A stretch of 64,000 bases of DNA from Amphiura filiformis (taxonomy: Eukaryota > Echinodermata > Ophiuroidea > Amphilepidida > Amphiuridae). How positions within the stretch are numbered: position 1 is the stretch's first letter; every line of letters starts with the position of its first letter. The notes under the pieces were generated by a model. It was not told the origin of the DNA. It saw only the letters and a program-made list of their open reading frames with translations, and searched no databases. The position numbers were made by a program, and so were the translations under genes. Positions 709-56,911 of this stretch are shown here, in pieces. Location of the stretch: positions 3,243,912 to 3,307,911 of the forward strand of contig NC_092629.1 of assembly GCF_039555335.1 (NCBI RefSeq), read 5' to 3'.

Positions 709-757
709 ATGAAGTCGCTCCCCATTTTGTTACTTGTGGTCGCTACGGCACTGGCCG
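709..757 (+). CDS. Exon 1: start codon and signal peptide
   Basis: The exon encodes MKSLPILLLVVATALAG, a typical secretory signal with a basic start, a hydrophobic core and small residues before the cleavage point. It ends at a perfect GTAAGT donor (758) with one base carried over. The TATA box upstream supports this ATG as the start. Confidence 0.88.
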
Positions 758-12700: not shown

Positions 12701-15700
12701 GCCATTGGCAACATCGGACAAGCAGCTCTTCATTACGACAGCAGCCATTACCAGGTTGATGAGATGATGGCCACCCGCCTCGTCAAATGCGCCGAGAACG
12801 AACACGTACAACGCAACATCTCCCTGGCCGCCATCCAAGCCATGCGCCGATTTGACATCCACCACGACATCCGTGATCCACTTAAGAGAATCCTACTGAG
12901 AACTGATGAGGATGTTGAGCTCCGATTGGCTAGCTACTTGATGGTTACAGCCGCCCACATGAGACTGACGTTGACGATATCCTGCACATGCTCCGTGATG
13001 AGCCCATTGATCAAGTCCGTGCTTTCATCTACTCTCATTTGGACAATATCTTGGAATCAGAGATTGAAGGTGTTATGGAGTAAGTAGCAAAGAGGGAATT
13101 TCATGGGGCTGTTTTATTTAAAATTCATACCCCTGCTATACTTGATGTTTCCATTTCTTAAATTGCATGACTATTGCTTGAACTTTTCAACAGTGAGGAC
13201 TCTGATTTTAGTCAGAAGGACTAAATAAAATTTAACATTAATAAGATTTTAAGTTTAAGATTAACTTTACAATGCCTTTGACTATGGTCATTGGAAAAAA
13301 GAGCAAAGAAATTTGCCATTCAGCAAGTCAGTTCTTGAATGTGTTTATTTCCATCCATTATGGCTTCTTTCAAACTAATAAGACCCATTCTTTGCAATAA
13401 ATATAATAATATCATCCATTCATACTTTTTTGTTGCAGACTCAAGAAAACCATCTTGGTAGCCCTCCGTGGCCAAGACCTCCCTGAATACCCACGTGACA
13501 TGCGCCGTCTCTCACGCAATATTGAGCTATCAAAGGTCCTCAACATCTCCCAGTTGGATGGCATCATCAACTACCTCAACAAGACTTTCAACAGCCCCCT
13601 CTTCAACAACACCATCGGCCAACTGTTGTACGTCAACAAGACCATTGGTGGAAACATTGAAGGCAACTTGATTCACAACCCAGAGACCTACTGGATGCGT
13701 GCTGCTATGATCAAGACTACACTCAACTTGCTAGGCAAAGAATGGGAAATGATTGAGGTGAGTTTGATTGATTGATTGAACAATTTGATTGATTGATCAA
13801 TTGATTGATTAACAATGACCCACCAGTTTATCAATGTCACTTCATCTGATTAAGCTATTGCTTGATTGATTGGTGTATTGATTGATGGGTTGTTTGATTG
13901 AATAGTGCATTGATTGATACATTGATTTATTAGTACATCGACTGTTTTACTGATTAAAATTATTGATTTACTGATTTATTGACAAAATTCAATCAAATTA
14001 AATTGATCAAAATTCATTTTTATATTGATATGATGCAATCTTGGAAATGATCTTTAATGCACTGCGTGCTAACCATAGGTTTCAAAATAAAAAGTCCTAA
14101 GTTGTTTTTAGAGCTGTCTTAAGAATGACTGAACCAATACTAGGATTGTCTGTACTCATTTGAATGCATTTGTCTGCTGATTCCAAACATGGTCATGAAA
14201 ATGTACAATTCCGAACAATTTATTTGAAAGAAAAATTGCAACTTGTCATTTGCAGTTGACACCCGCTTTGAGCAATGTGAAATGGTTATAATTCAATTCT
14301 TTCATCCCTTTGTATTCTGTAGACTGGCATTGACATGCAAGGATTTGAGCCAACCCTGGAAGCCATCTTTGGCCCACAAGGTTTCTTCCCAGACAACATC
14401 CTGGGCAGCATCTTCCGTACCATCGATGATAAAATCATCAGGGTCCTGAAGGAGATGTACAACTCTGTTGAGCCACACGTGAAGGACGTCTACAACGCAC
14501 CAATGAATGAGATGCCACAGAAGATGAGTGAGAAAGCTAAGGCTACCACCGACTACATCTACTCTAAATACAACAAGATGAACGGCAAGCAGAAGAGATC
14601 AATCACCAGTGCACTACAGGATCGCATCAATGAGGTAAAGTGGACTATTCCTGTTGAAATCCACATCCCCCCATGGATGACATGACCGTTATCTCCAACA
14701 CAGGGGGTGTAGATTTCAAATGGAGTCACCCATTCATCCATATGAAATGCACACTCCCTGTGTGGAAAATTAAGGGCATAATACATTGCAGTGTCTAGCA
14801 TCCATAGGGGCAAGATTTCACAAGTGGGCTGCTCCTCCCTTTACACCACAGCCCAGGTCACATTTTCAGCTATGTCTTCCAATTTTTGAGATTATATTCT
14901 ATTGAATTAACAAACTTAACAGTGATCTCTGCTTTATAATTGCAATTGCTTACAAATTGGTTACAAATTAGGAAAAAAAACGAGTTGGTTACAAATTGGT
15001 TAAAAAATAGTTAAGACTAAACAATTTTTGCTTTTCACTTCTGCAGTTGACCAACCTGCTACCAGTCAACATCCATGAGAACATCCAGAACATCCATGAG
15101 GAGGTCGCCAAGATGCCACTGTCTCCAGCTGCATCCATGTACCTCCGTCTCCTTGGACATGAGGTTGGCTTCGTCACCCTGGATGATGTTATCAGGATGG
15201 TACCCAAGGTTAACTTGACTAAGGATGGTCTTATGCAGATGGCAATGAAGGTATGTGTCTTGTCCTGTCCTGTCTTGTCTATCTGTCTGTGTTTTTCACT
15301 TAGGAGGGGCTCACAGAGGGGCTCCCAGCTATAGCACAAGTTGCAACCAATGATGACGATAAAACAATGACAAATTAATGCAAATTATACAAAATAAGTT
15401 TTTAAAAATTATCCAAATAAAACATTTATATTACATATTTTGATTTATGATGCTGGTTTTGGAAGCAATAAGGTTTCCTGATAACTTCAGCACTGGTCAT
15501 GGCTAACTTTGACACTAAGACCATTCTTATTCTCTTATAACCTTTGACCTTTTCTCCATCAGATGATGCAGAAAGCCCAGAATGGTATTGAGTACAACAT
15601 CACCAAGAGTTACATCTTCATGGATAGGGAATTCGTCCTCCCATCCGCTATTGGTCTCCCAGTTAGATGCAACATGAATGGAACCACCTCCATCAGCCTT

Positions 15701-17260
15701 CGTCTCCGTGGCAAGGCAGGACTCCAACTACCTAAGGTCTTTGTTGCCGGAAGAATTGCCCCAAGGTAAGAAACAAGACGTGAAGTATGTCTATAGTATA
15801 TTCTTTAGAACATAGAAAGTATTGTACACTTTTTTGTAGGTCCAACAGGAACAAGAAAAGTTAAAATACAAAGCTTTGGAAAATGTTTGCAAGCGTTTCA
15901 GAAAGTTATAATATTATTGGTTCAGCAGTTGCATGGTATTTAAGTATAAATTATATTTTCTGTCCATTAACAGCGGTGCAGTCAACATGATTGGTTCAAT
16001 GTCAGCTGAGATGCCATACTTCACCAAGCATGCCGTCATCGCCAACGCTACCGTCTACCACGCCTCACGTCTAGAGGGCAACGTCACCATTGATGGACCA
16101 CACATCAAGGTGAACCTGAACAACACTACACCAATCAACCTCTTCAACTTCTCAACCAACTTCTACCTCTTGAACACCACCGGTGACATGCACGTCATTG
16201 AGGGTATTGTCGAGGATCGCGTCGAGAAGGAATACTGCGTCCCAGAGAAATTTACTCAGACCATCTTTGGCATCACACCATGTGTATCATGGGCATACCC
16301 CAATGCTAGCTATGCTGAGAAAGCACCACGCTTCCCAATGACAGGACCATCCAACTTTGATGTGACACTCCGCAATATTGATCCGTAAGTTTGTCAGATG
16401 AATTCCATTAAAAATCCACATTCCACCTTTATCCACATATTCCACAGAGGGAGTATAAATTTCAAATGGAATGAACACATGGAGCCAAATGGAGCTGCCT
16501 AATGTACTCATTCCATTTGAAATTCGTACTCCCTCTGTGGAAGATATTTCCAAAATCTTCCATGGGGGAGTGTGGATTTAAAATGGAATAGCCCAATGGA
16601 AGAAGGATGTAACTGCATAGTAATAACAAAGAACTTGCAACCTTCTTTCAGCAAGCATCAAGTTGTAATTGTGCAGTTTAAGCATTTCTTAGGTCTGTAT
16701 GACAAGATGGCGACCACACATCGATATGCAAGGTATAATTTGGTGTTTTGTAATTATTAATCTAAAAAGATTGTAACAATTTTGTCACTTTCTTTCACTT
16801 ATTAGTATGATTTTTGAAAACAAATTCATGAGCATGTTTCTAGTAAAATGTTAAAGTAAATTGATTTGTTTAGTGATTGTTTGAGATTGCTTGTAGATGT
16901 TTGATTTATTGATTATTTCATTGATTGATTAATTGATCCATTTTGAGATGAGTCAACCGAGCATATTGATTGATTGATTTATTAACATGTGTTTGATTGA
17001 TTGATCCAATGTGAGATGAGGCAACCAATTTTAAAGTTAAAAGATCGATTTGATTTCATATTAAGTGTTAAGTGTTTATGATTGATTGATTGATTGATTT
17101 TTTTTATCAGAGAGCTGAAGACCTTCACATGGGAAGCCATGTACAAGCAGGTGAAATCCTCTTCCCCTAACAGCGCAAGATTGCTGAGGAGACGCAGTGC
17201 CGCTCAACCAGCACAGAACATCATCGATACCATTGTCATGAAATTCTCTGCACCTGGTAA

Positions 17261-17295
<35 letters not shown>

Positions 17296-20200
17296 CTTCG
17301 TATCATTTGGTATGAAGTATACAGAAGCATGGCATTAGTCATAGCATTGGGAATACCAATATTTGGCATGCGTTTGTCTGTCTGTCCGCATCTGGTAGGA
17401 AGTATACAGAGGCATGGGGAATACTCGCAGATGATCATGAGGACAGGACTGCATGCAGCAACTGAATTGCTCACTTTATTACCAGATGTTGATTACATAA
17501 TATTTGTGACCAATATGCAAGGATAGTTGGTATTTGTGTGTATTTTGTGTTTGGAGGTTTCAGTATTTAAAGCCAGCATCTTGATAAAGTTAGATTAGGT
17601 TATAAATCTTTGCAACTGGACTAACTGTTTTTGTTGACTACAGTATCACGTCATATCTCTGACAGTCACCAAAACAGTAAGTCCAGTTGCAAAGATTTAT
17701 AACCTAATCTAACTTTATTCAACTACCTGGATGATTGAGAATATTCATAGATATACAGCATCTTGATATTTAATTTGAAATAAAAGATGATATCTAAATT
17801 GCTGCCTCAAGGAGAGCAATTGCTGCCTGAAGGATAGCATACAGACTATAGCAGGCATTACAGTTGCCTTAATTACTTTAACTAGCTGCTAAACTAAGTG
17901 GTTTTAAATGAAACAAAATTAAATATGACGTCCCATTTCATTCGTTCTTTCTTCAGGCCGTGAACTCAAGCGTACAGTCACCTCCGTCGCTTCATTTGAT
18001 CGCTCCAAGACCGAGTTCCGCTACAACTTCTCCATCCCTGAAGCCGAAGTGACCTTCTTCAGTGGACTCCTCAACCAGGCTTGCCCCAAGACCAAAGCCA
18101 GTGGATACCAATTTGTGACCAACTTCACTGCTGGACCCAAATACAACGCATCAGTGTCTCTGACCCTGAAGGATTCATCTACCATGGACAAGACCAACTA
18201 CACCGCTGTGTACAACATGTCCGTTATGGATCTGTACAGCTCTGCTGTCGCACAATATGTCCATGATCCTACCTTCATGATTGCCAGCGCTAATGTTACA
18301 TACCACTGGTGAGTGGGGAATATATTAAGGGACTAACCTGTGTTTATGCCAGGGGGTTGAATGGGAGAATTTATAGGGAATTGTCATGTATAAAAAGAAC
18401 AAAACTTTACAATTTTCATGAAGAAACTTGAGAAATAAAGATAAGAGCATACAATAAATAATATTTTAAATTATCCCATTCCTCCCTGATGTAAATAAAA
18501 TGTGACTGGCCCCTTAGCATTTGTGCTAGGATACAAAACTATTAATTGTGTTAGTGTTTTATATTCACCCAAAAAACCTATTCAGAATTGCATCAATATA
18601 AAGCACAATATTGTTTTTAAATGTAGTGAATGCATTCATGACATTTATTAACCAATCTGGTGAAGTAACAAGGTATACTTTGTTTTAAAATTTGAATTCA
18701 TTCCTATTCCTATCAAAATTGATTTTTTTCTGTTTAAGTTATAAAACTTTGAAATTACTCAAGACATGTCACCATTTTCTCATGATCAATATGTCAACTT
18801 GAAGTCTTTTTCGCACATACACAGGGACAGTGAGACCGCCCTCTGGAGGCAGATTGCATGGCCATTCACAGGATACCGCATCAACCCCAAGAACTACCGC
18901 CAAGACTATGTCTTGCTCAAATCTGAGAAACGTGAGACCAGCAAGATGCTAGAGAGAGACAGCGAATTCAGGCTCAGCGTTCTCAACCAGAATTTCACCG
19001 TTAAGAGTGAACTCAGCAAGGATGCCGTCTATTACCATAATGACATCATGGTTGACTTCGAGAACTCCTGCAAGGTGGGTGAAATAATGTCCCATTTGAA
19101 ATCTATACTCACTGAGTGAAAGTCTTTTACAGAGGGAGTACATATGTATGGGTTTCAAATAGAATGACAATTATAATACGTCCATAATACAGAGGGAGTA
19201 TGGGTTTCAAAATAATGAAGTATAGCAGAATATAGTTTGATTCTCCAATTACTGATACTGATACTTCTGATCTCAATAGTCAAAACCTGTTTTCTTGTTC
19301 AAATTTTAGAACCTGCGCATTGTAAATATCACTGCCAAATCCGAGAACAGACCAAACAAGCACGACATCAAGATCTCTGCAGAACGCTCTGGACATGGTG
19401 TCTTCATCCTGTGGGAAGGAAGACAATCTTCCACCGAGAAGAACAACACTTTGACTTGGGGATATGAAGGCACCAGAAAACAGATTCTGGAATCCTTCAA
19501 GGTCTTCGAGAACCAACCTTCTGTTATGGGTCAGTCATATTTATAATTTTTTGCACATTTGCTTTTACAAATTTATCATTCAGTGTGTTTTATTTCCACA
19601 AGGCACTATGCACATGTATATGGTTATATAATCTTTTCAGCTTGGGTTGAGCATTTTGGTTAAGCTTCGTCCCATCAGGACCCAAGTGTGTGTCCGCCCA
19701 GATATTAAAACATCAATTAGCACCCATCAAATTCAGAGGTAAACATGTCACTGATTAATTTGATAACCAGACAGGTTTGGTTCACCCCAGAAGAAATGTT
19801 CCTCTGGTACGGCTTCCTTTTTATACAAAAAATTTAGGCAAGGCAACTGAAAGTAAGAAAAAATATGATGTGATTTTTTCCTTAAGCAGCTTGGTTCCAA
19901 GACGATACACAACAGATTTAGGCAAGGCAACTGAAAATCATAAAACTTATTGATGTGATTTTTTCCTCATGCAGCCTGGTTCCAAGATGATGCCTATCAG
20001 ACAGAAAGAATCTCTTACAACGTGAGCCACACCTTGTGCTTCCGTGATGAGAGCATCCCAGACGACAAATGGCAACGTCTCGTTTACTTCAACACCAGCT
20101 TCCCCAAACCTTTTACCATGGAACGCTTCAACTTGAGCTGGAGCGCACGTGTTGCCAACGAAACCATGAGACCATGCAATAACAACAGCTACTGGATGGA

Positions 20201-23200
20201 ATTCAACACATCTGTGCCATTCCTCTGGGTAAGAATGGTTGCTTAGTTACCATTGGGTTACCATGACAACAGATTTGTTTTGTTTCATGTCTTTTTTTCT
20301 GGAATTCCTGGAAAATCAATGTCTTCAGAAAAAACTGTTAAAATATCTATGGCTCTTTTATCGGTTTTTTAAATAGAAACATGCACCAAATAATACAATT
20401 AGATTTCATGTAACAACACATACTTGATATCATAGAAGATTGTTTTTGATTTTTTAAAAAATATATTTATTTCTTCCAATGTTAACATATTAGACTAATA
20501 TTAATACAAAATACTTTCCCAATGCGGATGTTCAGAAATTATAATTCAGGCAGGTGATATGAAAATACTGTTCTGGCCGTAACCTCCACAATCGAACAAT
20601 TTCATAACTTAAATTAATTTGATGATGGTTTTTAGCAGCTCATCAGGCTATTTAAGTTGAAATCCATACACCCCCAATGGAAAACTTGGCTTTAATTTCC
20701 CACACAGGGGGTGTAGATTTCAAATAGAGTCATTTATTCAGGTAACCCCATTTAAAATTCACACTCCCTGTGTGGAAGATTAAACTCATAACTTCCATTG
20801 GAGTTTATGGATTTTATCTGAAATGGCCCGTATTATAAAAGCCCTAGCTTCAACAAACTTAACACATAATGTTAACAAGTCATGATTGTTTTATATATTT
20901 TGTCTTCATTACAGTTCCACAATGCCAAGAGAGTACAGTTCATCAATGGCAAGGATGGCATCGACATCCGCTACAACGACACCGTCAGAGAGCTCTTGAC
21001 CAACCGCAATGCTACCATTGACCACCACTTCAACTACCTCTGGAAGACAATGAATGCCACCTGGGAGTTCAGACTTCTCAGCTGTTTCTTCAACTACACT
21101 TTGAACACCACCATGTACAACAGCACCGACTCTGGATACGTGTGGGACTACAGATCTATGTCCAACAATACACTCATGCACCTGTTCAACATCACTCATG
21201 GTGGTAAGGGGAAATTTTATTGACCTTTAATACATTGACCTATAAACTTTGACCTTTTTTAACTTTGACCTTGTTAATATGAGTTGTAATATGAGTTGTA
21301 ATAATGACAATGCAACTGACTGTAAATGTTTTAAGCTCTGTGTACTGTTCCAAAACACCACTGTCTAATAACAATGCAAGACTAAGAAATATCAGAGTCT
21401 GACCTTTGACCATATGCAAATATCTGAATTATTTTAGAAACTACTCTTGAAACTTCTCTCACCAAGAGGCTGAACCCTAAATATTGTGACCTTTGAACTA
21501 AGCCAATGTAGTTATGTGAACAAATTGACATTTTGGTACAAAATGATATCTTCAAGTATCAAAACAGTTACTGGTAATGCATTTGTGTTGTGGATTATTT
21601 ACAGTAAACAATATTCAGTCAAGTTAATTTGCCATACTTGTTAAGTTGATTTCTCATCAAATTGTCGAAGAATTGTTGGTCAAATAGCACCGGTAACCAA
21701 AAGTTAGAAAAAAGTTGCCCTTTCAATCAACTAATTTCTACTTCTTATTTTTATTTCCCTTTTGCATAGGTAACTTCTCCATTGCACCAAGAAACATCAG
21801 CCTTATTGGCGCATTCTGGCATCCATGGATCCAAGCCAACATGACCAATGTACTCCAGAAGCACGGCCCTATCACCGAATTCAGCATCCATAACATCCGC
21901 TCCATCTCCATGGACATCAAGGACAAGGCAGTGATGTGGGATATGTCCGGCGTAAGGATGATCTTGGAAGAGCTAGTCAACAAGGCTTTGGAATCAAGCT
22001 TCAACTTGACCAACCTCATCACCATCCGCACCCCATGGGCCGGTAATGTCACCCTAGATCACGCTACTCATTTCAATTTCTCCATGATCAACCACAGCAT
22101 GAACTTCGAGGCTATCCGCTCAGGATGCAATATTGGTCTCTTGGTCAACACTTCCGCTTTCTTGAACCGCACCCGTCTCAGCGCCGCATACAACACCAGC
22201 ATGATTGGAAGCCGATTCTACAATGTCAGCTCCAACATGAGCTTTGTACTCCGCAAGGCCGATGAGGGCGCTTTGGCTGTTGACTTTGTAAACGACCATC
22301 GTTTCATCACTCCTCTTGGTAATGTGATCATGAATGGCACCTACAATGTACACAACATGAGCCGTCCATGGCGCTTCAGCAACATCAATGGCACCCTTGG
22401 TTACAATGTTAGCACCCCAATTGTCAACTCCACAATGAATAGCTCTTTCATCTTTGACAACTTCACCAACTTGATGAGATTCAATGGTATCAGCGCCATG
22501 CTTGACCAAAACATCACATCCAGATTCCTGAAATGGAACATGAACGGCAGCTTCATCATCGATGAATTCCGCAACCTTGTCAACTACAGCCGCATCAACG
22601 GCAGCTTCATCACCGATTTGAAGTCATGCGTCGCCAACATGAGCCACAGCATTACTATGGATGTCAAGAACATGACTGGCCCATTCCGATTCGAGAAAGT
22701 CGGCGGTACCGTCAACCAGAACATCGACTCCATCTTCGGCAAATCCGTCTTTAGCACCGGTGTTGATTTCAGCAACTTGACCTCACCATGGAACTTTTCA
22801 ATGGTCAATGGCTCCATCAACTACAACATGACCTCTCGTCTGGTCAACATGACCATGACCAACCTGTTGAAATTCGAAAACTTCACCAAGCTCTGGCGAT
22901 TTGGCAAGATCAACGGAACCATGTTGTGGAACCTCAACACCAGCCTTGCTAATGCAACTTTGAAACATGCCGTCGATTTCGACAACTGGATCTCTCCAAT
23001 CAACTTCACCCGTGTCAATGTTACTCTTGAGCACGAGTTCAACTCCAAGCTTACCAACGCCAGCCTGAAACAAGCCTATGGTATCTATGGCATGAAGAGC
23101 TATCTGACCTATGATAGAGCCAACAGCAGCATCAAGGGCGAGATCAAGACGCCTTTCATCAATAGCTCAATCGCACATGAGATGGATGTACGTGACATGA

Positions 23201-26200
23201 GTGGACCATTCGTCATGAGCTTCGCTAACGTTTCTCTCCATACCAGAATGGATAGCAAGATAGTAAACCTCACAACTACCAACGGAATGGAATGGAACAA
23301 CATCGTGGAATCTTCACTTTTGACCGCATCAATGGCAGCCATATCTTTAACATCAGCACTCCAGTTGCAAGGTTCAACACCTTTGGAGAGCTCGTCTTTG
23401 ATGAATTCTCATGGCTTACCGCATTCCGTAAGGTCAACGCTACTGGATTAGTCAATGCCAACAGCCGATTCTTGAACTTCACCACCCGTGTCGGACACCA
23501 GATGCACAACTTCCGTAGCCTCTTTAACTTTGACCGTATGCAGACTGATGAGCGTACCATCGTCCGCAACTGTCTGATGAACCACACTGGCGAGACCCAC
23601 CTAACTTTTGACAATTTCAGAAGCCTTATGGACTTCGATAGCATTAATGGTAACTTGAATGCAAACACCAGGACTTTCGTGGGTGAGCACAACCAGACCT
23701 ACACATTCGATCTACGCAACTCACGCGGAATGTTCAACTTTGAACGTCTTTTTGGAAATACCAATGTTGAGACTAGGTCGAGATGGTTCAACATGACTGC
23801 CATCAACAACTTGGACATGAACAGATTTGAGTCGCTCTTTAACTTCGAAAGAATGACAATGATCTCCAACGTCGACATCAAATCACCAATCGTGAATACC
23901 ACCCATGTAATCCGTGTAGATGACATTGACAACCGCAAGATGTTCGAATTCAGCAGTTTCGATGCTAGTCATCTTTGGGTTGTAGAAACACCAATCCATA
24001 GCTACGTCACTGATAGCGATGTTCAGCTATCCGGATTCCATTAGCTCTTCAAGTTCAATAAAGCCCATTTTAACAATGAGATGGAATTGAACAACAGACT
24101 TGCTAACTTCACCAGCAGTCACAAGTATCACATGGACAGTTTCCGCAGTGCTTTTGACTTTAACAGCGTTGCAACCGGTGGCACCACTGAGCTGTCAACC
24201 ATCCTTGGAGGACACACTAGCAACATTGACATCAGCTTCAACAACTTCAGAAGCTTCTGGAACTTTGATAGCATCAAGAACCTCATCGAATCTCACTTTG
24301 TTAGCCGCTACCTCAACAACTCTCACGTCATCAGGGCAGAGGTCACAGACTACCGTGAATTCCTGAACTTTGACCGATGCACCAGCAGTTACAACATGCT
24401 CTTCAACACAAGGTGGTTCAACTTGACCAACAACGTTGGCTTTGGCATCCATGATGTCCGCAAATTGTTCAACTTCGCACACATGTCCACCAGCGCCAGC
24501 ATGAATGTGAGCACACCAATCATGAAGACCGGATCAATGGCTGGAATTGAATTGAATGAGTTCCGTAGCATCCTTGACTACGATCGCATCAACGCAACTG
24601 CCGCCATGAACGTGAGCAGCAGATGGTTGAATGTATCCAGTGAAGCCACTCATGGAATCCACGACATGCGTCACCTATTTGTCTTTGACCGTATGAACAC
24701 CACCGGACGTGTCAACATTAGCACACCAATCATGAAGACCAACACCTTTATCGGACTTGACATGCATAACTTCACCAAACTTTGGCAATTTACCCGTGTC
24801 AATGGCACAGCTTTGTGGAACGTGAGCAGCCGCATGCTCAACATCACCAATGAAGGCATGTTTGGAATCCATAACGTCACCAAACCATGGGCATTTGAAC
24901 GCATCAATGGCTCTACCAAGATGAACCTTAGCACCCCAATTGTCAACACCACTAGCATGGCTGGCATTGAATTCAACAACTTCACCAACCTTTTCAACTT
25001 CAGCCGTATCAACGGAACTGGCAACTGGAACATCAGCAGCCGCTGGATGAACATGACCACTGATGGCGAATTCGGATTCCACAACTTCAGCCGTATTTTC
25101 ACCTTCGAGAGAATCAGCGGTAGCGCCAAGATGAATTTGAGCACTCCATTCTTCAAACAATCCAGCTTGATGGGCATTGAATTCCACAACTTTACCAACC
25201 TTTTCAACTTCAGCCGTATCAATGGAACTGGCAACTGGAATGTCAGCAGCCGCTGGTTGAACATGACCACTGATGGCGAATTCGGATTCCATAACTTCAG
25301 CCGTATTTTCACCTTCGAGAGAATCAACGGCAGCGCCAAGATGAACTTGAGCACTCCATTCTTCAAGGAGTCCAGCATGGCAGCTTTGGAATTCCACAAT
25401 TTCTCCAGCCTCTTCAACTTCAGCCGTATCAATGGAACTGCCAACATGACCCTAGCTAGCCGATTCTTGAATGTTACCTCACAGGGCGATATCGGATTCC
25501 ACAACTTCAGCCGTCTCTTCACTTTTGACCGCATCAACAGCAGCATGAAGATCAACGTTAGCACACCATTCGTAAACATGAGCGCAATGGTAGGCAGTGA
25601 GCACCACAACTTCTCATGCCTCTTCAACTTCTCCCGTATAAACTACACCCACGCCGTCATGGTACGCAGCCGTATGGCTAACTTCTCATCCGAGGGTAGC
25701 CTTGGATTCCACAACTTTACCAGTTTCAGGAACTACCGTCTCATCAACGGCTCCGAGAAGATGAACTTCAGCAGCCGTCTTGTCAACTTGACTCACATGA
25801 CGGCTTTTGAAGACAAGGACCATAGCTGTCTCTTCACTTTTGAACGCTTCAACGTGACTTCGCTGACCAATATGACCAGCCCATGGCACCGCATGACCAC
25901 CAATGCCACATTTGAAGTCAAAAATGTAAACCGCCCATTCAACTTTGAGCGTGCTATTGCTAACATGACCACTGAGTTTGTCACACGTTTGGTCAACATC
26001 ACCAGCAACAGCTCCATTGAATTGCTAGGATTCGAATCGCTCTTCAACTTCAGGAAGTCTAACAGCTCTTTCCTCATGAACATCACCACACCTATTGCTA
26101 ACTCAAGCTTGAACGCATCTCTTCTGTTGGATGATGTCACCAGCTGGCGCTTCCACCGTGGAATCAACAGCTCCGTCGTCTTCCACTTCCGCTCCCCAAT

Positions 26201-29200
26201 GATGAACTCATCAGTCGAGCACCAGACAGGCTGCACTGACTTCACCACCTTTGGACAGATGTTCAGATACAACACCAGCCTCAGGGTCTTGGAGAGAGAG
26301 ATCGGCCTCATCTTCACCGAGAAGATCAACAACGACCTTGTCCTGTTCAACGTCACTGTTCCACAACTGAGCGGCTCCATGTGCGCCTTGGCTGAACTCA
26401 ACAAATTTGGCGATGTCCTCAACATGAGCCTCTTCCGTCAAACAAGAGAGGTGAGTTCTATCAAAGTGTTAAACCTTTGTACCATTCAATGCAATAACTT
26501 CTATCGATCTAGTTCCATAAATATGTGCGATTTATTCTGTATTCATTATGTGATGAAGATTTAGAGGAGTAGATCAAGATTCAGGTTCCTGCCCATTCAG
26601 TGATTTGCTGCATCACCTAAAATGTGCTATTCTATTTGAAATCCACACTCCCCCTGTGTAAGATTTAGCTAGAGTCTGACATAGAGAGAGTATGGTTGTC
26701 AAATAAAATAAACCATAAGGGGAATATGGATTTCAAAATAATTAACCCTAGCCAATTCCATTTTGCAAATAATACTCCCTCTGGAAGACTTTTCTTAAAT
26801 CTTCAGGTTGTATGTCAGATTCCAAAGGAATTAATCAATATTCAGATATGGGCATTTTTGGACAAACGTGCGTATTAAAACATGAATATTTAAATAACCA
26901 TGTAATTGGCCAACATTAACTCAAGTCATAACCCTAGCTGTAAATTTAAAGTCCTTAACTCTACCCTAATCTTAACCCTAAAGCAATTTACAATTATTAA
27001 TTTTGGTGGTTCTTTTGTTTCTATCATTTCAGAATGTGAACATCACTGACTTGAGCTGGATTCTGATGATGAACCGCAGCGACGTCGTCTACAGCAACTT
27101 CACCTGGAACCCAGAGACACTCCGTGCCATCCGTATGCTCTCTGGCGCAGCCCTCAACAAGACCATCAACGCTACATTGACCGCACTCAACAAGACCATG
27201 ACCACCGTCAATAATACTTTGACCGTAGCTCGCCGTGCCATCAACACCACCATCCACGCTGTCAACTACACATACAATAACCCATTGGATTCATTGAAGT
27301 ATGTGATCAACGGCAGTCTTGTTGATGCTACCATCGTCAAAATCAATGCCACAAAGATGTTCTTGAACCAGACCATGAATACAACCATCTTCTACGTCAA
27401 CCAGACATGGCATCTGATGAACTTCACTTCAGTCAACTCGACTGCTGAGAGCTTCGTCTTCGCTATCAAGCAGACTCCATTGAACATCCCAATCGAATTC
27501 GTCAATGTAACCATCAGACGCATGGATTTCAGCACCGTCAACTCAACCATTGAATCAGTCCTGCGTGAGATCAACTGCGCCAGGACCAACAAGACCGTCA
27601 GGGCTATGATGTCGCGTGTGAACAACTCCATCGAGATCATCGGCAGGAAATTGAACGAGACCATCATTTTCGTCAATGCCACATCCACCAAGGCCATCAT
27701 CTTCTTCAACCAGAAGTTGAATGAGAGCATCGTCTTCTTGAATGAGACATGGAGAGATGGTAACTTCACCTCCCTGAATGCCACCATTGACACCATCATC
27801 TCGGCTCTGAACCGCACCCGTCTGAACACCACCATCCTATTGGTCAACAACACATGGCAAAAGATGAATTTCACCAATTTGAACTCCACCATCGAAAGTC
27901 TCAAGAAGGTTGTCAACTTCACAGCTATCAACTCCACCATCAACGCCACCGTTGCACGCATCATGGAGAGAGTCAACCTCACCAGCATCAACGAGACCGT
28001 CTTTGAGATCATCCGTATGGTCAACCTGACTCATCTCAACGAGACATTGGTGAACTATTCCATGATTGCAATCACAGAGATCCAGCGCATCGCTATGAAC
28101 GAGAGCCACCCAGTCAACCAATTCACCATCAGGTACCTTAACACCACCGCCTACAATCTCACCATGAAGTACTACCCAATTGCGTACAACTACACTTACA
28201 ACATGACCACCAAGTATTACCCAATTGTGCGTAACTTTACCGTCCACTACTACCGCATCGGCCAGAACCTGACTGAGAAATACTACCCAGTTGTGTACAA
28301 CTTCACCGTCACTTACTACCCTGTGGTACAGAACTACTCTATCATCGCATTCAACAGGACCAAGAACTACACCCTGATCGCTTTCAACCTCACCCGTTGC
28401 TACGGCGAAGTCCTTTACAACCGCTCCTTGGTGATGTACAACCGTACTGCTAACTACACCCAGAGGGCGCTCAACCTGACTTCACATTATGGCGTCATCG
28501 CATTCAACAAGACCAGGAACTACACTCTGTGGTTTGTCAACGTCACCCGTCCACAGCGTGAGCTCATGATCAACTTCACCAGGAACATGACCAACCTCGC
28601 TTTGAACAAGGCCGTCAACTACTCGCTCCGTGCCATCGAATACACCGCCAATAAGACTGAATGGGCTAAGGAACACCACCGCGAGTACATCATCTACTAC
28701 ATCGAGGTCCTCAACAAAATGACCAACCGCACATCCAACACTACTGATAGGCTATTCAATGCAACTGAGAAGGTACTGAGGAAGGCCCTCAACTACACCA
28801 TCAAATATGGCAAACCTGTCATGATCAAGATGCTGGAGAGGACCAAGGATCCAAAATGCCTCATCAACTACTTCCCAATGAGGTAAGATAATGGACCACA
28901 ATGGCCTCATCCTAATGGCATAGTACAATAACTCAATTAAACACTCGTAGTGCAAAATTTGACCTCAAGTTGCAGAGTATGAGATTTTGTGCCAAAATTT
29001 TCTAAGGTCATTCATTAATTGTACAAATGTATTGGGGTTAAAGAACTGTGCCGTGATAGATGAATATGTTGTGGATCATAGTGTAAGATTATCTCTAGTT
29101 TTCAATTGATTTTGCTTAATTTGCTGTGTGAAGTTCCAGAGGTATATAAGCAAGTATGCATCCAGAGTTTATATGGTATTCACCTAAAAGAATCTCATGT

Positions 29201-32200
29201 GTTTAGTAACTAAATGAACACTTACTATAATGAAAGACAAAGCAAAGTGGACATATTTCTTGCAAAACAATTACAGAAGTTAGAACTAATTATGATTATG
29301 TTTTTCTGCGATTTAACAATCATTTTTTACCCATGTGCATGTTTCCGTTTTACTTTTGCATCTTTAATTGATAAATTGATACAGATAGATTGATTAGTTA
29401 TCAATATTGAATCTTTCAGGTACTACCAGAAGACATTATTCATTCTTGGCCAGGAAGCAGGCAATAAGATCATGTTGGATGGAATGCAACTCATCCTGAC
29501 AGAAGGCAACACCTTTAACACCTACATCAAGAAGATAACTGACATGAATTCAATGGAGGTAAGGCAACCACAATGGCCTCATCCCAATCACATAGTTTCA
29601 TAACCTCAATCAAACAATCAAAGTGCAAAATTTGACCTCAAGTTGCGGAGTATGAGTTTTTGCAATTCAATTCCAACATTTCTGTAAATCAGGGCTGTCA
29701 ACTCTCACGCATTGGCCGTGAGTCTCACGCATTGGGTCAGTTTCTCACGGTCTCACGCCAAGGTAGTATAATCTCCCGCCTAGGTAGTAAATCTCACGCA
29801 AAAAGCTTTAAAATGAGTTAAATCTCAGGCATCGTCAAAATAAATTGTTGTCAAATTGTTGTCACTACCCCCCGCTTTTCAGATTCATGATGGCCGTGGC
29901 TCAAATAATCACGGGTCAAAATGAACATTGTAGTTGGCAAATCCTGGTACACCTCTGTCTCACATCAAGCAATTCCAAAAAGTTGACAGCCCTGCTGTAA
30001 ATAGCTGTTTTAAATTTTGATACCTTTTGTTAAATTATCATTAAATAATTGTCATGTCATCTTTCTTGTCCAGTTGGGAATGTTCCTCTTGGAACAAGCC
30101 AAGGTATACAAGACCTACGCCAGTGGCAACATCACCTACTTCGCTAACGTCACCCGTAGCAACGTCACCTTCTGGGCCAACTACACCTTGGAAAATGCCC
30201 CCATGGCAACACTCAACCTGATTGGCAACGCCACCGTCAAAGCCAACACCACTGTTCTGTGGCTGAACAGCACCCGCGAACAGCCCCTGAATATGACCAT
30301 CGACCAAGTGAAGATGTACCTGAACGAAACCATGGTTGAGGTGATCGAGTTCTTGAACAAGACCCTGAATGGCTCTACCGAGAGACTTCTTAATCTTACA
30401 TGGGTGGGATACAACAAGACCGTCCATTATGCCAACAGGTAGGATAGCACTCTTGTATTGGGCCATTCCATGTAAAATCCACAATTTTACAATTCCAGTT
30501 GCACATTATGTACAATACAGCTAGAAATTTCGACTCGTTTCATATGAAATTCAGCTGGAAATTGTAGAGATTTGTCAAATCCAGTTGAAGTTGGCACAAT
30601 CTGGCCTAATATTCAACAATTTTGGTTTTGAATTCCAAAATCTTGGACTTTGTATGGATGAAAATGATTCGATATGGAATAAATTACACTGATGGATTTG
30701 GTTGGAATTCCAAAATCTTCCACAGTGGGGGTGTGGTTTTAAAATGGAACAGGCCCAAGTTTATCTGAAAAAAAACAAACTTTAAATTTGTTTTAATTCT
30801 GCTGAACATTCTTCAATGTTATTACTACTTTCAAATGAATTGTATATAAAACATAACCCTCCTTTGTTTGAAAGTGTTGCCAAATTGAGCAAGTTGTAGT
30901 TGGTAAACACTGTTTCCAAACCTTGTTCTCCTACAGGACTCTGATCTTAATCCAGCGAAACCATGTGCTACGTCAGGAACACCACCGTCAAAGTCTGGAA
31001 GTTCATCAACGAAGAGACCCCTCTCGTCAACATGACCCTCGACTTTGTCAACAAGACCGTCAACTTCACTCTAACCTATGCCAACAAGACCATGGAACTT
31101 ACCTGGGAATACGGCAGGAAGGGACGCAACGCTAGCCTCATCGCCATCGACTACCTGAAGAACAAGAGCGAGGAGATCCGTAATGCCACCAGGGATATGG
31201 ACTTCAGGGCCATCTATTTTGTCGCCAATCTGACCAGGAATGTCACCCGCTGGAGCATTGATTATACCAGGGACTACGCTAGAGTCGGTGTGGAGTATGT
31301 GAACGGCACCATGGTCGGTAAGTGAAATATCCAACCAATGTTGACATGAAACAATTTTATTATAAGCTTTTATTGAAGTATAAATATGTAAAAAATACAT
31401 GATTTTTAATTTTTTATAACTTGGTCTGATTCCTAATTAACTGAGCACAAAGCATTTGGATGATATTTAAGTACGCAAAAGCTGTATAAGTTATAGCAAA
31501 TGCGATTCTTGATGTATACGTTGCTGTATTTTATCGGGCAAATATTTTTGCAAAAATTGAAATCTTCATAATATAAGCTTTATCAAAGTGCAAACTATAA
31601 TTTCTAATGTTAACAGACAAATTTATTAATGAAAAAATAAATCCAAATACAAAGTACCCTTTAAATCATTCTTGTCTTTTAAACTATAGTAGCCAACAGG
31701 AATCCAAAGAGACCAACTTTATTTTTTAAGCATTACATGAACACATTCTTAATATCTTGCTTTTTTTTTCATTTTGATTTCACAGGATGGTTTATCCGTT
31801 ACTATAACATCCACAACATCCCATACAACATCTACAATGTCTCCTACACTCATATTAACAACACACCAGAGTATGTGCGTCGCATGGTAGAATTCAACAA
31901 GCGCTTGACCGTCAACACCCTGAACAGGATCGGCACTCTTGAAGACAACAGCTTTGCAATCAACATCAGCCATCCACTTAACATCACCAGCTTCAGGAAG
32001 TTCCCCAACTTGACCAACGACCAATGGATGGTGATCAACAACGTCACCGTGAGGGTCACAGATTATGCATGCCAGGCACGTGAATACTACGAGCTAGCCC
32101 GCGAGATTTCAGAAGAGAAGTACCGCGAAGCACGTGAATATGTGGTGGAAATGTACGAAAGCAACAAGCCACAAATTGACGAGAAGATGAACCAACTGAA

Positions 32201-35200
32201 AGCCAAGTATGAAGAGCTGAAGACAAAGGTCCAGGAATTGCGTGAACGCATCCCAGAGTACCGTGAGAAGGCTATGGAGAAATATGAAACCCTGAAGGCT
32301 AACTGGCCAATGTACAAACAACAGATGAAGGAGAAGATGCAAGAGATCCGTGAGCAGCTGCCAACTTGGGAAGAGGTGAAAGCAGTCCCAGCCAAGATCA
32401 GACAAGAGATCGACAACATGATGAACAGATGGCCTGAAACCTACGTAGAGATCCGTAGCAAGATCATCGCCCTCCCAGCCAAATACCTCGAGCTCAAGAG
32501 CAGGATGAACACCTGGATTGAACAAATCGAATTTGACATCCCAATGGAATGCCAGAAGCTGATGGACAATGTCCAGGAGTATCCACGCATCCACACCGAA
32601 GTAGAGAAGATGTGCAACAAGATCCCAGCACTCCGTCTAGAAGCTGAAAAGAAATACGAAGAGCTTCAGCGCTACATCGAGATGGCCAAGGTCATCGTCG
32701 AGAAGAAAATGGAAGTCGTCTGCGCAAAATACCCTGTTGAGTGCGAGAAGATCAAGCAGTACTGGCAGGAGGTATCCGCAATTGATGCTCAGCTACTGAC
32801 CCAGAAGCTCCAAGAGAACATCCCAGAGACTTGGGATGAGGTTAAGGAGGAAGTCAGGGAGAAGTGGACCGTCATGAAGGTGAAGGTTGAAGAGCTCAAA
32901 CGTCAGGCCGATGTCAAGATTGAGGAACTCAAGGTAAGATACTTTAACCTCCTGGAAACTACTAGTCATCTAACAGTATTTTTAATTGGTTGATAACGGG
33001 TAATGCTTATTTCAATTGCCAATTATGACTAGGCTTTAAACTATTTATGGTCAAACTTGCATTTGTAGATGATTTTATTAATACCCTCCTTGATTGGTTC
33101 AAAATTGGACACAATATTAATTTTGGCCAATCGGCATGTAGTTCTCATGGGGTTAAACAAAGCAACAATACGACACAATCTGATCTGACTGACTGAAATC
33201 ATGACATCCCTAGCATTGGGCTATTCCAGTTGAAGTACACACTCCCCTTGTAGAAAAATTGGAAATATTGTCACTTGGGTTGTAAAAAAGTTTTGGTGAT
33301 TATTTCACAATTCTTCAAACAAATGCTTTTAAAATGATTTAAAAAAATACGGAAAATTTGATGGGCAATTTTGAGACAAATACGCACAGCTGCTGAACAC
33401 CCTTGCTTTGAGGGCTTTATATAAAACCACTATTTATCTGGATCTAATCTTCTGCAATCTTTTTACCCATCCAGGTCAAAGTTGAGGAACTCAAGGTGAA
33501 AGCTAAGGAGATGAAGGCTAACATGAAAGTGAAAGCTACTGAGCTGAAGGAACTCATCAAGGCAGAATACCCCAACACCCTCGACCACATCCAGAATGCC
33601 ATTACCCAAATCAAGAACATGATTGAAGGTATGTGAAAGAAACTTGCTACAAATTAGTTACGAGAGCTTAATTGATACATGTAGGGAAACTAAATTAAAA
33701 AAAAAACAATGACAATTTAAGTGGTAAAGGATTTGTACTGGTGACCTCTTTGGAGCAGGAGATTTTAAAAGAGATACCATACATAAGTAAATTTCTACTA
33801 GTAAATTAAAGCTCTTAAAGCAGATTCTTATTTTGTTATAAGAACAATGAATTAAGTAACATTGATTTTTTGATTTTAATGTTTTGATTTAACATGATTT
33901 CATTTGAATTGGTCTTAATTTCTTATGGTCTAATATGAATCAGTCGTAATTTCTTATGGTTCAATTCATTTTGGAATGATTTTTATATGATCTACATCAC
34001 TATCCACTATTTTGTGATATTTAACACCCAAAAACCAATCAAGTTACATGAATTGTTTACAAGCCACACCCACTGATCAAGAATGTGATTTGATTTTCCC
34101 AGGAACCTACACAGCTCTCCGTGAACAGATGATTGTCTACTTTGACAAATACTACCCAACTCTGACTAAATATGTGGGCGAGATCCTATCCTACATCATT
34201 GGTCTTGCCATACGTTGATAGGGCGTGGAATACATCGCTGGTCTACGACCACGTATGGACAGAGAACGTAAGTGAAGCACACGATTAGAGCCAGAATGCC
34301 ATATTTGCAATAGCTGCCCTATGTAACTCTGACAATTTCTGCATTCTATATTGTATACATTACAAAATATGATACCTGGCAGCTATTGCAGATAGGGCCT
34401 TCTGGTCCTAAATTCTGAAAGTGGTATTGAGGACAAAATTGACCCAACATTTGTGACATATATCTTCCGTTTTAGGCAATCATTGCCCTCATTTTAGCAT
34501 TAACACTGCAAATTGTTTGTGCTTTGCACTTATTTGTCTCAATCCCTGTAAAGTTGGCCTGTTACTACAACTGCACAGGGGTAGAACCAGAGAGGGATGT
34601 AGAGGGTATTCATTACTACGTCATTGATGTGATTGCTCATGCATAAAATTCCTCCACATAGGTTGTTTAGCTTAATCGGGAGAGTGACCTCTTGAAATGA
34701 TGATCACAGTTATCTTTGAGTTATTACAGTGAGGCCCACGTACAATATTCAACACAAAGTGAACAATGCTATAACTTGGAGGACAAACAAACCAACACCG
34801 CCAAATTCGACTGACATGTGTACAGCACGGGAAGCTATGGGGAAATTGAACACTTGTTGTCTGATCATGCATGTGTTTATGGTTCGGGTAGCGGTTACTT
34901 AGCAACTCTCGTTCCGCTTGGGTTATTGCATACACTCTATAGGAGTCCTGGCCTAACTCAAGCAGGAGCCGAAGGACCCATCACATGTAATGACATGTTT
35001 CTTATGAGGTCTGGTTTTGGCCCCACTCAGTGTTTGCCCCCTCAAATTTGCTGTCCCTTCACAGTTCAAGGCACTTTTTGAAATATGAAAATTGTTTCTA
35101 ATCATTTCATCTTGCAATGGTTTAATTAACACTTACTACATTCTTGTACTAATTGACTGATTCTTTTCTTCCAATTTCAGATACCGCTATGATCTTCGGC

Positions 35201-38200
35201 AACCTTGGTGTCCTTACCTTCGACCACAAACTCTTTGAATTCCCTGGCTACAGAGATCCTACCTGCACCTACGTTTTGGCACGCGACTTTGTCGACAGGA
35301 ACTTCACCCTCTTGGCCGACCAACACGCACTCACCATGGTCCTCCCATCGGTTGTTGTAAAGATTGATGACGAGCATCGTGTATTCATCAACGGCAGACC
35401 AGAAAGCCACGAGCTTCCATACCAGACTGATGATCGCCAGGTTGCGGTAATCCGTGAGGGACCATGGATCAATGTCACCACCAAATACGGAATCACCATC
35501 AACTGCCACGAGAAGCACTTCCTCTGCACCATGAGACTAAGCAACTGGTACCACGGCAAGACACAAGGTATCCTCGGAACCTTCGACCGCGAGATCAACA
35601 ACGAGATGCGCAAACCAGATGGCACCAACGCAACTTCCATCATCGAATGGGTCAACAGCTACGAGGTCACTGGCCACACCTACTGCAAGATCCCACCAGG
35701 CCGTAATGTTCTACCAAATACCGGAGTCTGCAGCGAACCAGTAGCAAACAAGATCGAAGTCTGTGAGAGTCTCTTTGTGGATCCAAGATCACAGTTTGCC
35801 GAAGCTTTCAACCAGATCAATGCTGGACCATTCTTAGAAGTGTGCAACCAAATGGCCCGTGACTGCAGAGATGTTTGCGATATTGCTCATGGATATGTTG
35901 CCGTCTCCCGTGATGAGGGCATCATGATTGAACACACACCAAAATGTGGTAAGTTGGTCTGTCTGTTTGTTACATATGTAGCTGGAAATTTTCTTTAGGG
36001 TACAATTTTGGAAATTTTCTTTAGGGTACAATTTTGGAAATTTTCTTTAGGGTACAATTTTGGAAATTTTCTTTAGGGTACAATTTTGGAAATTTTCTTT
36101 AGGGTACAATTTTGGAAATTTTCTTTAGGGTACAATTTTCATGCTTTTTACAGTCTATTTCAGAAGAAAGAAATTTTAATAGCTGCAAAAATATATCTGC
36201 CCCATTATCATGATTATGGTGTGAAATACAAAAATGGTCATTTGATTTGAAGAACAAACCGGATGAATAGTATTTACCATTGTTTCCAATATGTTGCCAA
36301 GTGATAATATGACCACATAGGTTGAGAGTTGAATGAGTTATTGGCATCTAAGAACTATTTTGATTGGTTACAAAGAGGGTTATACCATGTATTGAGCCAA
36401 TGAGAGATATGGTAAGAATGGACACTGGGATTAAGGTAAAATTCCTGAGATGTATAATATCTCTATTTTGATTGGTTACTAAGAAAAGTGTCCCCCAATG
36501 TGGACCAAAATGACAGGTACCCCAATTTCCTGGACTAATGTTGTGTTTTCAACTTATATTTTTCAGACCGTTGTGAGGATGACATTGCTCTCGACACCAA
36601 ATTCAACATCACCAAGCTTCCAAAGAACACAGCAGATGTTGTCTTTGTCGTCTCTGAGAACCGCAAGACAAACGAGAACCGCAGAACCAAGAGCTACCTT
36701 AGAGATCTCGTAGCAAAGATGGACAAGACCATGCGCAAGGCTAACACCGATGAGAACCGATACAGCATCGTTGCATTCGGCGGCGAGGGCGTACATGCAC
36801 CAGCACACACCCACACCTCCAATGGAAAGATCTTCGCTTCAGCATCCGAGATCTCATCAGGAATCAATAGCTTAGAATTTGACGGAGAATTCCAGACTGA
36901 TGCTATGGATGCACTACAATGGGCTGCTGATCTCCACTGGCGTGCGGAGGCTAGCCGTATCATTATCTTGGTTACCGAGATGGAGAGAGGTATGTATCCC
37001 CGGTGGAAGATTTTGGGAATGTCTATAAAAGGAGTATGAATTGACCAGCTCTGTTTAAAACTCATCCTCCTTCTTTGGAATTTTCATATTAAATCTTTCT
37101 CAGGAAAATGCTTCATTTTTATGTCCATTTGAAATTCATTTTTAAATAATGGTCAACAATTTTCAGCCAGTTCCGTTTGTCCTGACTGGGAGAGCAGACT
37201 GGGGGAGGGGGGGGGGGGGGGAGTAAATGCAAAAGTTTTTTGCCGCCACAACTACATGTATACTTAAAATACACAAGCTTGCAAAGGCCTAATAATTAAT
37301 GGATAGAATGCACATATCTAGATCATGAAGAACAGATAAAATTAAATAGGAGGATATTTTGTGTGCAACCTATAACCCTCATCAGAAGTCCATTGATTTT
37401 GTTGTTGAAGCAGATCATCTGAAACATTGACTTTGACTTGGAGGAAAGGTTTTCAGCTTAATATTTGTCAATCTTTAATCTTGATGGTCCCAAGTTGCTT
37501 ATACTTATGTGCCACTTTTCCATTGCTTCCTCTCACTCCAGGAACCATTCAACAGCTCAATCAGCTACCTCGATGTTCAACAAGCTTTCGACGAGCACAG
37601 CATCACCTTCTTCGTCTTCTCTGAGTACAAAACCCTGAACAAGGACGGCAAAGAACCAGTCCTTGGCATCAACTTTGACTCCACACTCCTGACCACCAAG
37701 AGGACTTCCGCTGATGATCTGGTTACACTGAAGTTGCCTAAGGGTCACTATGCCAAGATGGCCACTGCATCAAAGGGTACGTATTAATTATGCTAATTTA
37801 TGCAAATAATCATGCATAAATTATGCAAAATGTGTATTCACTGTAAAACATGCTCCAAGTTTCAAACAAATGATTTGGATATGAATGGTTTTGTCAATTC
37901 ATGGGCATCAATCGGGGGGTGGGGGTGTGCCCCTCCACCTTTGGGCAAAATGACCCATTTTTTGTTCTTTTCAGCCACTTTTTGACAATTTATTGTAGCC
38001 AAATTGGCGCTTATGTGTCAACCTTACAAATGAACTAATGTTTATATATTCAGTATGTTATACAAATAGAAAAAGAACAAGTTTTTAAATACATGCAACT
38101 CTCTGGTATTCACAAGTATTTTTGCTTCCCAAAATTATTCACCTCAATATTGATGCATATTACATGACAAAACTGGTCACAAGAAACCGATATATGAAAG

Positions 38201-52175: not shown

Positions 52176-53321
52176 TTAGGTCTGAGTGTCTTGTGCTGGT
52201 TCGTCTTCTTTACCTTCACATGGAGACGGTTTCCAGCTTTGAATCAGGTCTATCTGTCGGAATGCTTTGCTTTGACGGCATAACCATATCACATAGCTGG
52301 TTCTGAGTGCGGTTTTAGAAGCCACATCCGTGATGCTACGTCTCTTTCCACTTGGTACTCCGAGAGCAGCGATGCATTTTGTCAGCGATGTGTTGTAAAT
52401 ACCTCTGCTTCCAATTTCAATTGGGAAGTAGTGCGTACACCATCCCCTATTTTCGCAGTCGGCTACAAGATCTTGGTATTTGCTTTTCTTTCTTGCATTG
52501 GCATTTGACAGGTTTTCTTCCATTGGGACTGTAAGCTCAATGATGATAACTGTTTTGGTCCTTTCAGAATAGATTGTAATATCAGGACGTTTTGCAGTCT
52601 CTGTGATTATGGGCGGAAATACTACTTGCTTATGTTCCTCATCCATCAGAAATTCCCAGTCATTGGCCTTCTGTAACAGGTTTGTTGAGTCCCTTTTTGG
52701 AAGAGGCAGTGCTGGATTCCGGTAGGTTACACCATCTGCAGTGCTGAATTTGATAGTAGTCATATAATGGGTATCTTCTGGAGGGGTGTTCGACTTCTGA
52801 TTTGCCTCTTCAATGAAGGGCATTATGCCATTTGCTACAGCTTTCAGTGTCTGATCATGTCTCCAGTTGTATCTTCCACTCTGCAGAGAATAGTTACATC
52901 CATTTAAGATGTGGAATAGAGTGCAGTTATTATGATGACATAAATGGCAGGATCCGAGGTTGGTCTTTCCCCAGAGTCTCAAATTAGCTGGTGATGGAAG
53001 TTGGTCGTGGATGGCATTGACATGAAAAGATAGGAGCTCTGGTGTCCATACATAAAGGAGCTTCTTCCAAGATGTATCTACTTGCATGGCAGAGTCCCAT
53101 CTGAGCCATTGTCCTTGTTTGGCGCAGCCATAGAGGTACACAAGCATGTCATCTTCATCTACGTCTTTTACCAGACTAGTGAGGCATTTCCTGTGTTCTT
53201 GGGGTTTCATGTCTCTTAACAGTTTCTGGTTCTTTTCGCCAGCCCATTCGGGGCTGGTACCTGTTTTCGCCAGCCCATTCGGGGCTGGTACCTGTTTCAG
53301 GTTTGGGGTCAGTTTACTCAA
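52176..53321 (-). mobile_element. 3' end of an R2-like non-LTR retrotransposon (zinc knuckle plus restriction-like endonuclease)
   Basis: The 381-codon frame matches the C-terminal third of RLE-class retrotransposon proteins. Residues 70-122 resemble the thumb region after reverse transcriptase (QWLRWDSAMQ, SFHVNAIHDQLPSPANLRLW). C125, C128, H137 and C142 form a CCHC knuckle (CHLC...HILNGC) followed by GRYNWRHDQTL. RPD at 245-247, E262 (IIIELTVP) and the following lysines form a PD-(D/E)XK endonuclease site, which nicks target DNA in this class. No reverse transcriptase motifs lie upstream, so the copy is 5'-truncated. A 31-bp duplication at 53233-53294 shifts its first 20 residues out of the ancestral frame. 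Confidence 0.85.
53233..53294 (-). repeat. 31-bp tandem duplication inside the endonuclease frame
   Basis: TTTTCGCCAGCCCATTCGGG and the rest of the unit occur twice, at 53233 and 53264. The two copies are read in different frames on the - strand: VPAPNGLAKT and GTSPEWAGEK. Confidence 0.92.
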
Positions 53322-56880: not shown

Positions 56881-56911
56881 GTTACCACTATCGAAACTCA
56901 GTATAGGCTTC

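Follow-up and report, generated by a model that had tools for sequence, protein, structure and literature searches.

A predicted apoB/apolipophorin-type lipid transfer protein of Amphiura filiformis with a sequon-dense, putatively glycan-coated lipid-binding belt

The stretch of DNA analyzed here (the window; 64,000 nucleotides) comes from the ophiuroid Amphiura filiformis (RefSeq assembly GCF_039555335.1, contig NC_092629.1, positions 3,243,912 to 3,307,911 of the forward strand), and coordinates are counted from its first letter. On its + strand lies a gene that probably starts at 709 with a candidate signal-peptide exon and extends at least to a VWA-like exon ending at 36989; on its domain matches and search scores, it belongs to the apoB/apolipophorin branch of the large lipid transfer proteins. 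Behind the lipid transfer module stands a predicted lipid-binding belt that is exceptionally dense in N-glycosylation sequons (N-X-S/T). The reading we favor, to which we assign a probability slightly below 0.6, is that the gene encodes a secreted scaffold of the apoB/apolipophorin type whose belt carries selected N-glycan sites on its polar side, at positions where other repeat units carry charge.

The features are collected in Table 1. The candidate first exon was the sole match in a scan upstream of 7000 for an ATG followed by a hydrophobic core and a strong donor, and it would supply the signal peptide that a first-pass annotation of this DNA had posited; it would be joined to the next exon. 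Between 6904 and 7396, successive frames match Pfam Vitellogenin_N at positions 1-58 (E = 3.3e-5) and then 78-109 (E = 0.018-0.041), whereas the third piece (7238-7396) gave no Pfam match, its assignment to Vitellogenin_N being our own reading. The ends of exons 19-25 are in phase and exons 21-25 form one open chain on translation. Splice scores are mostly good, with weak acceptors at exons 22 and 24; for the latter, the in-phase acceptor is 30956 or 30977 (a higher-scoring site at 30937 would break the phase), and the sequon count is the same whichever acceptor is used. Exons between 32933 and 35181 were modeled in part, and the VWD exon presumably lies in the same gene as the belt. An intron between two exons of the lipid transfer module holds a 74-base tandem repeat (9653-12154, 33.8 copies, 98% identity).

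Table 1. Features of the predicted gene (positions within the window)
Feature	Position	Strand	Basis or remark
Candidate first exon, signal peptide (MKSLPILLLVVATALA...)	709..757	+	ends at strong GT donor
First part of Vitellogenin_N, across three frames in the record	6904..7396	+	Pfam
15 modeled exons, lipid transfer module (Vitellogenin_N, Vit_open_b-sht, DUF1081) and following part	8171..20228	+	splice and codon scoring
Exon 19, 96 residues	20915..21203	+	8 sequons
Exon 20, 35-residue repeat array	21770..26450	+	113 sequons; end sites in phase
Frameshift in exon 20 of the record	23300..23310 (near 23305)	+	overlapping open reading frames change frame
Sequon-poor stretch of the exon 20 repeat	23310..24569	+	11 units
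In-frame TAG in exon 20	24042..24044	+	repeat-unit position 35, register kept
Exon 21, 616 residues	27033..28882	+	66 sequons
Exon 22, 46 residues	29420..29558	+	0 sequons
Exon 23, 121 residues	30074..30438	+	13 sequons
Exon 24, 120 residues	30956..31317	+	11 sequons
Exon 25	31786..32933	+	6 sequons
VWD domain exon	35181..35948	+	Pfam VWD 2.5e-15; ends from site scores
VWA-like exon, in phase with the VWD exon	36567..36989	+	Pfam VWA_2 1.5e-4; phases from site scores

Pfam comparison of the lipid transfer part returned Vit_open_b-sht (1.3e-47), Vitellogenin_N, also named LPD-N (6.3e-22; 78.3 bits, cut-off 24), and DUF1081 (1.4e-9; 38.8 bits, cut-off 25). The best solved relative is human apoB (4.4e-53, over three aligned stretches, one of them weak), while lipovitellin matched at 0.041 and MTP was absent among the two matches to solved structures up to E = 1. 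These domains and the apoB match bear out the earlier description of a large lipid transfer protein. Among solved proteins, the VWD exon matches IgGFc-binding protein (5e-23) and von Willebrand factor (1.8e-16); the VWA-like exon scores 22.8 bits with VWA_2, under the curated cut-off of 27, and its best solved match is collagen VI at E = 0.2. Assignment to the apoB/apolipophorin branch follows from the combination of the candidate signal peptide, the apoB-like lipid transfer module and the VWD domain. The RX(K/R)R cleavage site of apolipophorins was not found in the modeled segments, from which some N-terminal exons are missing or in which they are broken. A dibasic RLLRRR occurs at 17178, past DUF1081, and is possibly a cleavage site, in a place that differs from the apolipophorin one. 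Searches of solved structures gave a single match for exon 21 (E = 0.18) and none up to E = 1 for the last piece of exon 20 (20c, see below); of the pattern matches in viral contigs (43 and 11) none was confirmed as a relative, nor was any of the 180 in bacterial and archaeal genomes.

Sequons were counted as N-X-S/T, with exon 20 read as three stop-free pieces, 20a, 20b and 20c, that hold 41, 8 and 64 of its sites. The direct recount agrees with the first-pass figures of about 113, about 66, 13 and 11 for exons 20, 21, 23 and 24. The enrichment had been described as spanning exons 20-24, which holds for these four exons but not for exon 22, and it begins earlier, in exon 19 (2.1 sequons expected) and in the N-terminal part, where the 1,226 residues modeled from 8171..20228 contain 33 against 12.2 expected. 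Together, exons 19, 20, 21, 23 and 24 (exon 22 being omitted) carry 211 sequons in 2,511 residues, whereas residue shuffling gives about 57 (a ratio of 3.7); the density is 8.4 per 100 residues, or about one per 12 residues. In 2,000 shuffles per piece that kept residue composition, the means were 11.4 (20a), 4.9 (20b), 19.8 (20c), 14.1 (21), 2.6 (23) and 1.8 (24) and the maxima 23, 12, 32, 25, 8 and 6, respectively, so that five of the six pieces exceed every shuffle and only 20b (8 vs 4.9) falls within the shuffle range. An artefact of base composition or reading frame is rejected, as the other five frames of 20a, 20c and 21 contain 0-9 sequons compared with 41, 64 and 66 in frame. N-P-S/T was not seen at all, which is uninformative because Pro is rare. 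All six sequons of exon 25 fall in its first 102 residues, the other 280 being charged (40% DEKR) and free of sequons, and the open reading frame with the VWD domain has three in 281 residues. The whole modeled protein amounts to 250 sequons in 4,165 residues.

The pattern of these sites points to selection on the sequon itself. Pooled, Ser or Thr occupies 67% of the positions at Asn+2 compared with a base of 18%, and the other 13 offsets (−6 to +8) give 10-23%; by subset, the +2 value is 83% in exons 21, 23 and 24 and 59% in exon 20. In the latter exon, a 35-residue repeat was divided into 36 in-register windows, which form three runs (of 8, 6 and 22) and of which the final two fit the unit poorly; two units, the one at the frameshift and the one that the stop terminates, were omitted, as were the non-repeat segments with which the exon begins and ends. 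Asn and the Ser/Thr at +2 covary over these windows in six of the eight repeat columns having at least five Asn, namely the sequon slots at positions 3, 8, 14, 21, 25 and 32 (Fisher p = 0.026, 1.3e-4, 1e-5, 2.4e-4, 0.0056 and 0.023, values that are optimistic for reasons given below). In 30 de-duplicated units, slots 8, 14 and 21 are still below 1e-3 (four slots were retested). The spacing of the sites is also restricted. None of the 204 gaps between consecutive sequons is shorter than four residues; a gap of four occurs 18 times, and gaps of one and three were never seen against about 19 and 18 expected (the lowest of 400 random placements, which forbade only the impossible gap of two, were 10 and 8). 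Such an absence would follow if every site must be usable by the transferase. The codon test was mixed. At +2, Thr and both Ser codon families are used in slots 3, 8, 21 and 32, and Thr and AGY only in slot 14; of the classes compared, the Asn columns are under the tightest constraint, with a ratio of nonsynonymous to synonymous differences (pN/pS) of 0.46, and over all unit pairs pN is 0.52 and pS 0.69.

The placing of the sites differs between the exons. In exon 20, a beta-like period of 165° is common to the sequons and the hydrophobicity (z = 9.1 and 7.9 in 20c, 4.5 and 4.5 in 20a), and the hydrophobic columns 2, 4, 7, 15, 20 and 33 adjoin slots 3, 8, 14, 21 and 32. In exon 21, sequons follow a helix-like period of 100° (z = 9.6), with excess pair distances of 7, 11, 18, 22 and 29 residues and an 11-residue period in the sequence, and exons 23 and 24 together show the same 100° periodicity (z = 5.4); the 35-residue unit was not seen in any of these three exons. 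With a beta-like arrangement in exon 20 and a helix-like one in exon 21, the same type of site thus follows a different layout in each of two kinds of sequence. Sites facing away from the hydrophobic moment number 39 of 66 in exon 21 and 17 of 24 in exons 23 and 24, and by these computed moments the sequons are on the polar side, not directly opposite the hydrophobic face. Both the periodicities and the residue columns fit a belt in which amphipathic beta repeats, encoded by exon 20, would give way to amphipathic helices in exons 21, 23 and 24.

Where a slot of the exon 20 repeat lacks Asn, a charged residue commonly takes its place: in nine of 11 such units at slot 21, 12 of 16 at slot 32 and eight of 15 at slot 14 (base 17%), and more weakly at slot 3 (8/20). 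Sequon number falls with charge both across the 36 units (rho = −0.59, or −0.56 with Asn, Ser and Thr taken out of the denominator) and across 83 windows of the modeled protein (rho = −0.67, or −0.54 with the same correction). The 11 units of the sequon-poor stretch have on average 1.1 sequons and 6.9 charged residues each, compared with 3.3 and 5.4 for the other 25; a tree of the 36 units gave no answer on whether the sequon-poor units are older. From this inverse relation between Asn slots or sequon number and charged residues, we infer that glycans stand in for charge in the belt. The glycan-covered belt of the first-pass annotation is thereby better grounded, through the placing of the sites and this glycan-or-charge exchange, and is still a prediction.

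A number of observations weigh against this interpretation. Ser/Thr is also raised at −4 in exon 20 (0.31) and at −5 in exons 21, 23 and 24 (0.30); columns 12 and 16 show no significant Asn/+2 pairing (p = 0.25 and 0.14), one of 34 control tests (at +1, +3, +4, −1, −2 and −3) fell below 0.05 (slot 8 at −3, p = 0.014), and slot 32 lost significance on de-duplication (p = 0.15). The slots were picked after the columns had been viewed and the units are related by descent, hence the optimistic p-values, and repeat geometry may account for part of the spacing rule. In the codon analysis, pN/pS is 0.91 in the +2 columns compared with 0.85 in the remaining columns, a lack of constraint that arises because Ser-Thr swaps count as changes, and the rates in the seven disjoint closest unit pairs (nonsynonymous, dN, 0.32; synonymous, dS, 1.04) give a ratio biased low by the choice of pairs with lowest pN. 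As to geometry, the sequon signal in exon 20 peaks at 60° as well (z = 8.8 in 20c, 4.3 in 20a) and exon 21 has a second peak at 160° (z = 6.5); the angle between the hydrophobic moment and the sequon Asn is 102° in exon 21 and 134° in exons 23 and 24, not straight opposite, and the moments are modestly concentrated (R = 0.30 and 0.45, respectively). Slot 8 shows no charge exchange (1/12), and sequon-rich windows of the modeled protein are also more hydrophobic (rho = 0.72). Finally, exon 20 is broken in the record by a one-base frameshift and a TAG stop.

Of the alternatives, the one that fares best holds that such sequon density is a common, phylum-wide trait of apolipophorin-type proteins, ordinary there though unnoticed; we regard it as a tentative but serious contender. 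It is opposed by human apoB, which has only 19 sites in 4,536 residues according to the excerpted text of PMC4891372, and this one relative is the extent to which the earlier assertion that known members carry far fewer sites is upheld. It is opposed too by the literature, in which the titles and abstract openings searched (most subscription journals lying outside) contained no report of this density in the family.

We consider it rather unlikely that the sequons mainly serve another purpose, such as a carbohydrate store in the egg, a ligand for lectins or immunity, or protection of a yolk or clotting lipoprotein from proteases. The superfamily does include yolk, clotting and immune-linked proteins (as listed in the portion of PMC1783640 consulted), and the VWD and VWA-like exons might permit self-association, but a surface role, which is itself compatible with the others, better accounts for the charge exchange at slots 14, 21 and 32. 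Two roles floated in the first-pass annotation, a lectin ligand and an ice- or water-ordering surface, gained no support in this analysis.

That the locus is a recent pseudogene or null allele, with the array not made as protein from this copy, appears improbable, although the record gives it some substance. Exon 20, treated at first as one continuous exon with no mention of a break, is interrupted by the frameshift near 23305 and by the TAG at 24042, the former lying just before the sequon-poor stretch and the latter inside it. Three further frame changes occur. One, near 12950, leaves the end of the modeled exon 12701-13014 out of frame; the other two fall between 6904 and 7396, where consecutive parts of Vitellogenin_N are matched in one frame after another and where small introns are possible. 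A hidden intron around the exon 20 breaks was rejected, as no frame-keeping pair was found among the GT donors of 22600-23450 and AG acceptors of 23300-24900 that scored above a low threshold (one donor and four acceptors). Likewise rejected was a small deletion at the stop, where the TAG fills one codon of the 35-residue register, and assembly indel error does not account for it. Against a dead gene, the ends of exons 19-25 are intact and in phase, with open frames in exons 19 and 21-25 as well as in the VWD exon; taken as indels, the four frame changes are alike, each lacking one base, as long-read assembly errors would give; and the closest unit pairs have dN below dS, albeit in the biased test described above. 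Because exon ends are in phase and frames are open elsewhere, we consider a fault of the assembly more likely than a dead gene.

Least credible is a by-product of Asn-rich amphipathic repeats, with polar-face Asn, Ser and Thr copied in tandem and sequons arising without selection: the belt core is indeed 12.5% Asn and 18% Ser+Thr, and exon 20 is largely a repeat array whose closest copies share 33 of 35 residues, but this is largely refuted by the pooled Ser/Thr peak solely at +2 and the covariation within columns (in six of eight, with one of 34 other-offset tests below 0.05), and is further opposed by the excess in exons 21, 23 and 24, where the 35-residue unit is not seen, and by the missing gaps of one and three.

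Under the favored interpretation of a secreted scaffold with a selected, glycan-bearing belt, the chain would enter the endoplasmic reticulum via the candidate signal peptide, and oligosaccharyl transferase would glycosylate many of the sites, which average one per 12 residues. The hydrophobic faces would then load lipid with the aid of the N-terminal lipid transfer module, as is established for the family, while the glycans would make up a large share of the belt's polar surface, set the water-facing side and form a steric coat that stops belt strands and particles from sticking. The resulting lipoprotein particle may be sugar-coated. A bolder version, which we put forward with some hesitation and at less than even odds, is that the belt owes its hydrophilicity mainly to N-glycans and not to charged side chains, its strands and helices becoming properly amphipathic only once glycosylated; particle assembly would then be tied to oligosaccharyl transferase, and the particle would bear a continuous sugar brush. 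An N-glycan has a mass of about 1.9 kDa. Were the sites used, sugar could therefore outweigh protein in the belt (211 glycans of this mass vs a chain of about 290 kDa), and the particle would achieve solubility by another route than charge, on which apoB is assumed to rely. The exact function of N-glycans on apoB-type particles is called unknown in the available text of a plasma review (PMC4891372); a natural extreme with its sites in use would make that role testable, with the sequon-poor, more charged units of the same exon 20 repeat as an internal control.

Elsewhere in the window, a 394-residue open reading frame on the minus strand (52179-53360) has a weak zf-RVT match (0.0015, under the cut-off) and is probably a retrotransposon fragment, and a 323-base unit that occurs in tandem, in about two copies (56589-57206, 98% matching), is perhaps a repeat element. 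Rfam and tRNA (ARAGORN) scans of the window gave no match.

Among known systems, human apoB-100, the protein of low- and very-low-density lipoproteins, resembles the predicted protein in its N-terminal lipid transfer module, which aligns as described above, and in DUF1081. To our knowledge, apoB has no RX(K/R)R site, as in the modeled part here, and we know of no VWD domain in vertebrate apoB, whereas one follows here. The two differ most in their sites, with 250 sequons in 4,165 modeled residues here compared with 19 potential N-glycosylation sites in the 4,536 residues of apoB, 17 of them reported occupied (PMC4891372, in the part consulted). Insect apolipophorin II/I and crustacean apolipocrustacein share with this gene the set of Vitellogenin_N, DUF1081 and C-terminal VWD that PMC1783640 lists for them but have a conserved RX(K/R)R site (near residue 725 in the apolipophorin II/I type), not found in the modeled segments here, and no VWA domain is named for apolipophorins in the sections of PMC1783640 available to us. 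Vitellogenin and clotting protein likewise combine Vitellogenin_N with VWD according to the same sections of PMC1783640, and have Vit_open_b-sht by its Pfam name; vitellogenin is set apart by DUF1081, which that text confines to the apo branch, and by a lipovitellin match at only E = 0.041.

Outside the superfamily, MUC16, DSPP and titin resemble the belt in having many sequons per chain. MUC16 and DSPP are low-complexity repeats. In the consulted portion of PMC10987669, the human maxima are given as 107 sequons for membrane proteins (MUC16) and 67 for secreted ones (DSPP), with 163 in titin ascribed to its length, and human secreted sequon-bearing proteins average 3.9 sequons per 500 residues; the belt described here has 8.4 per 100.

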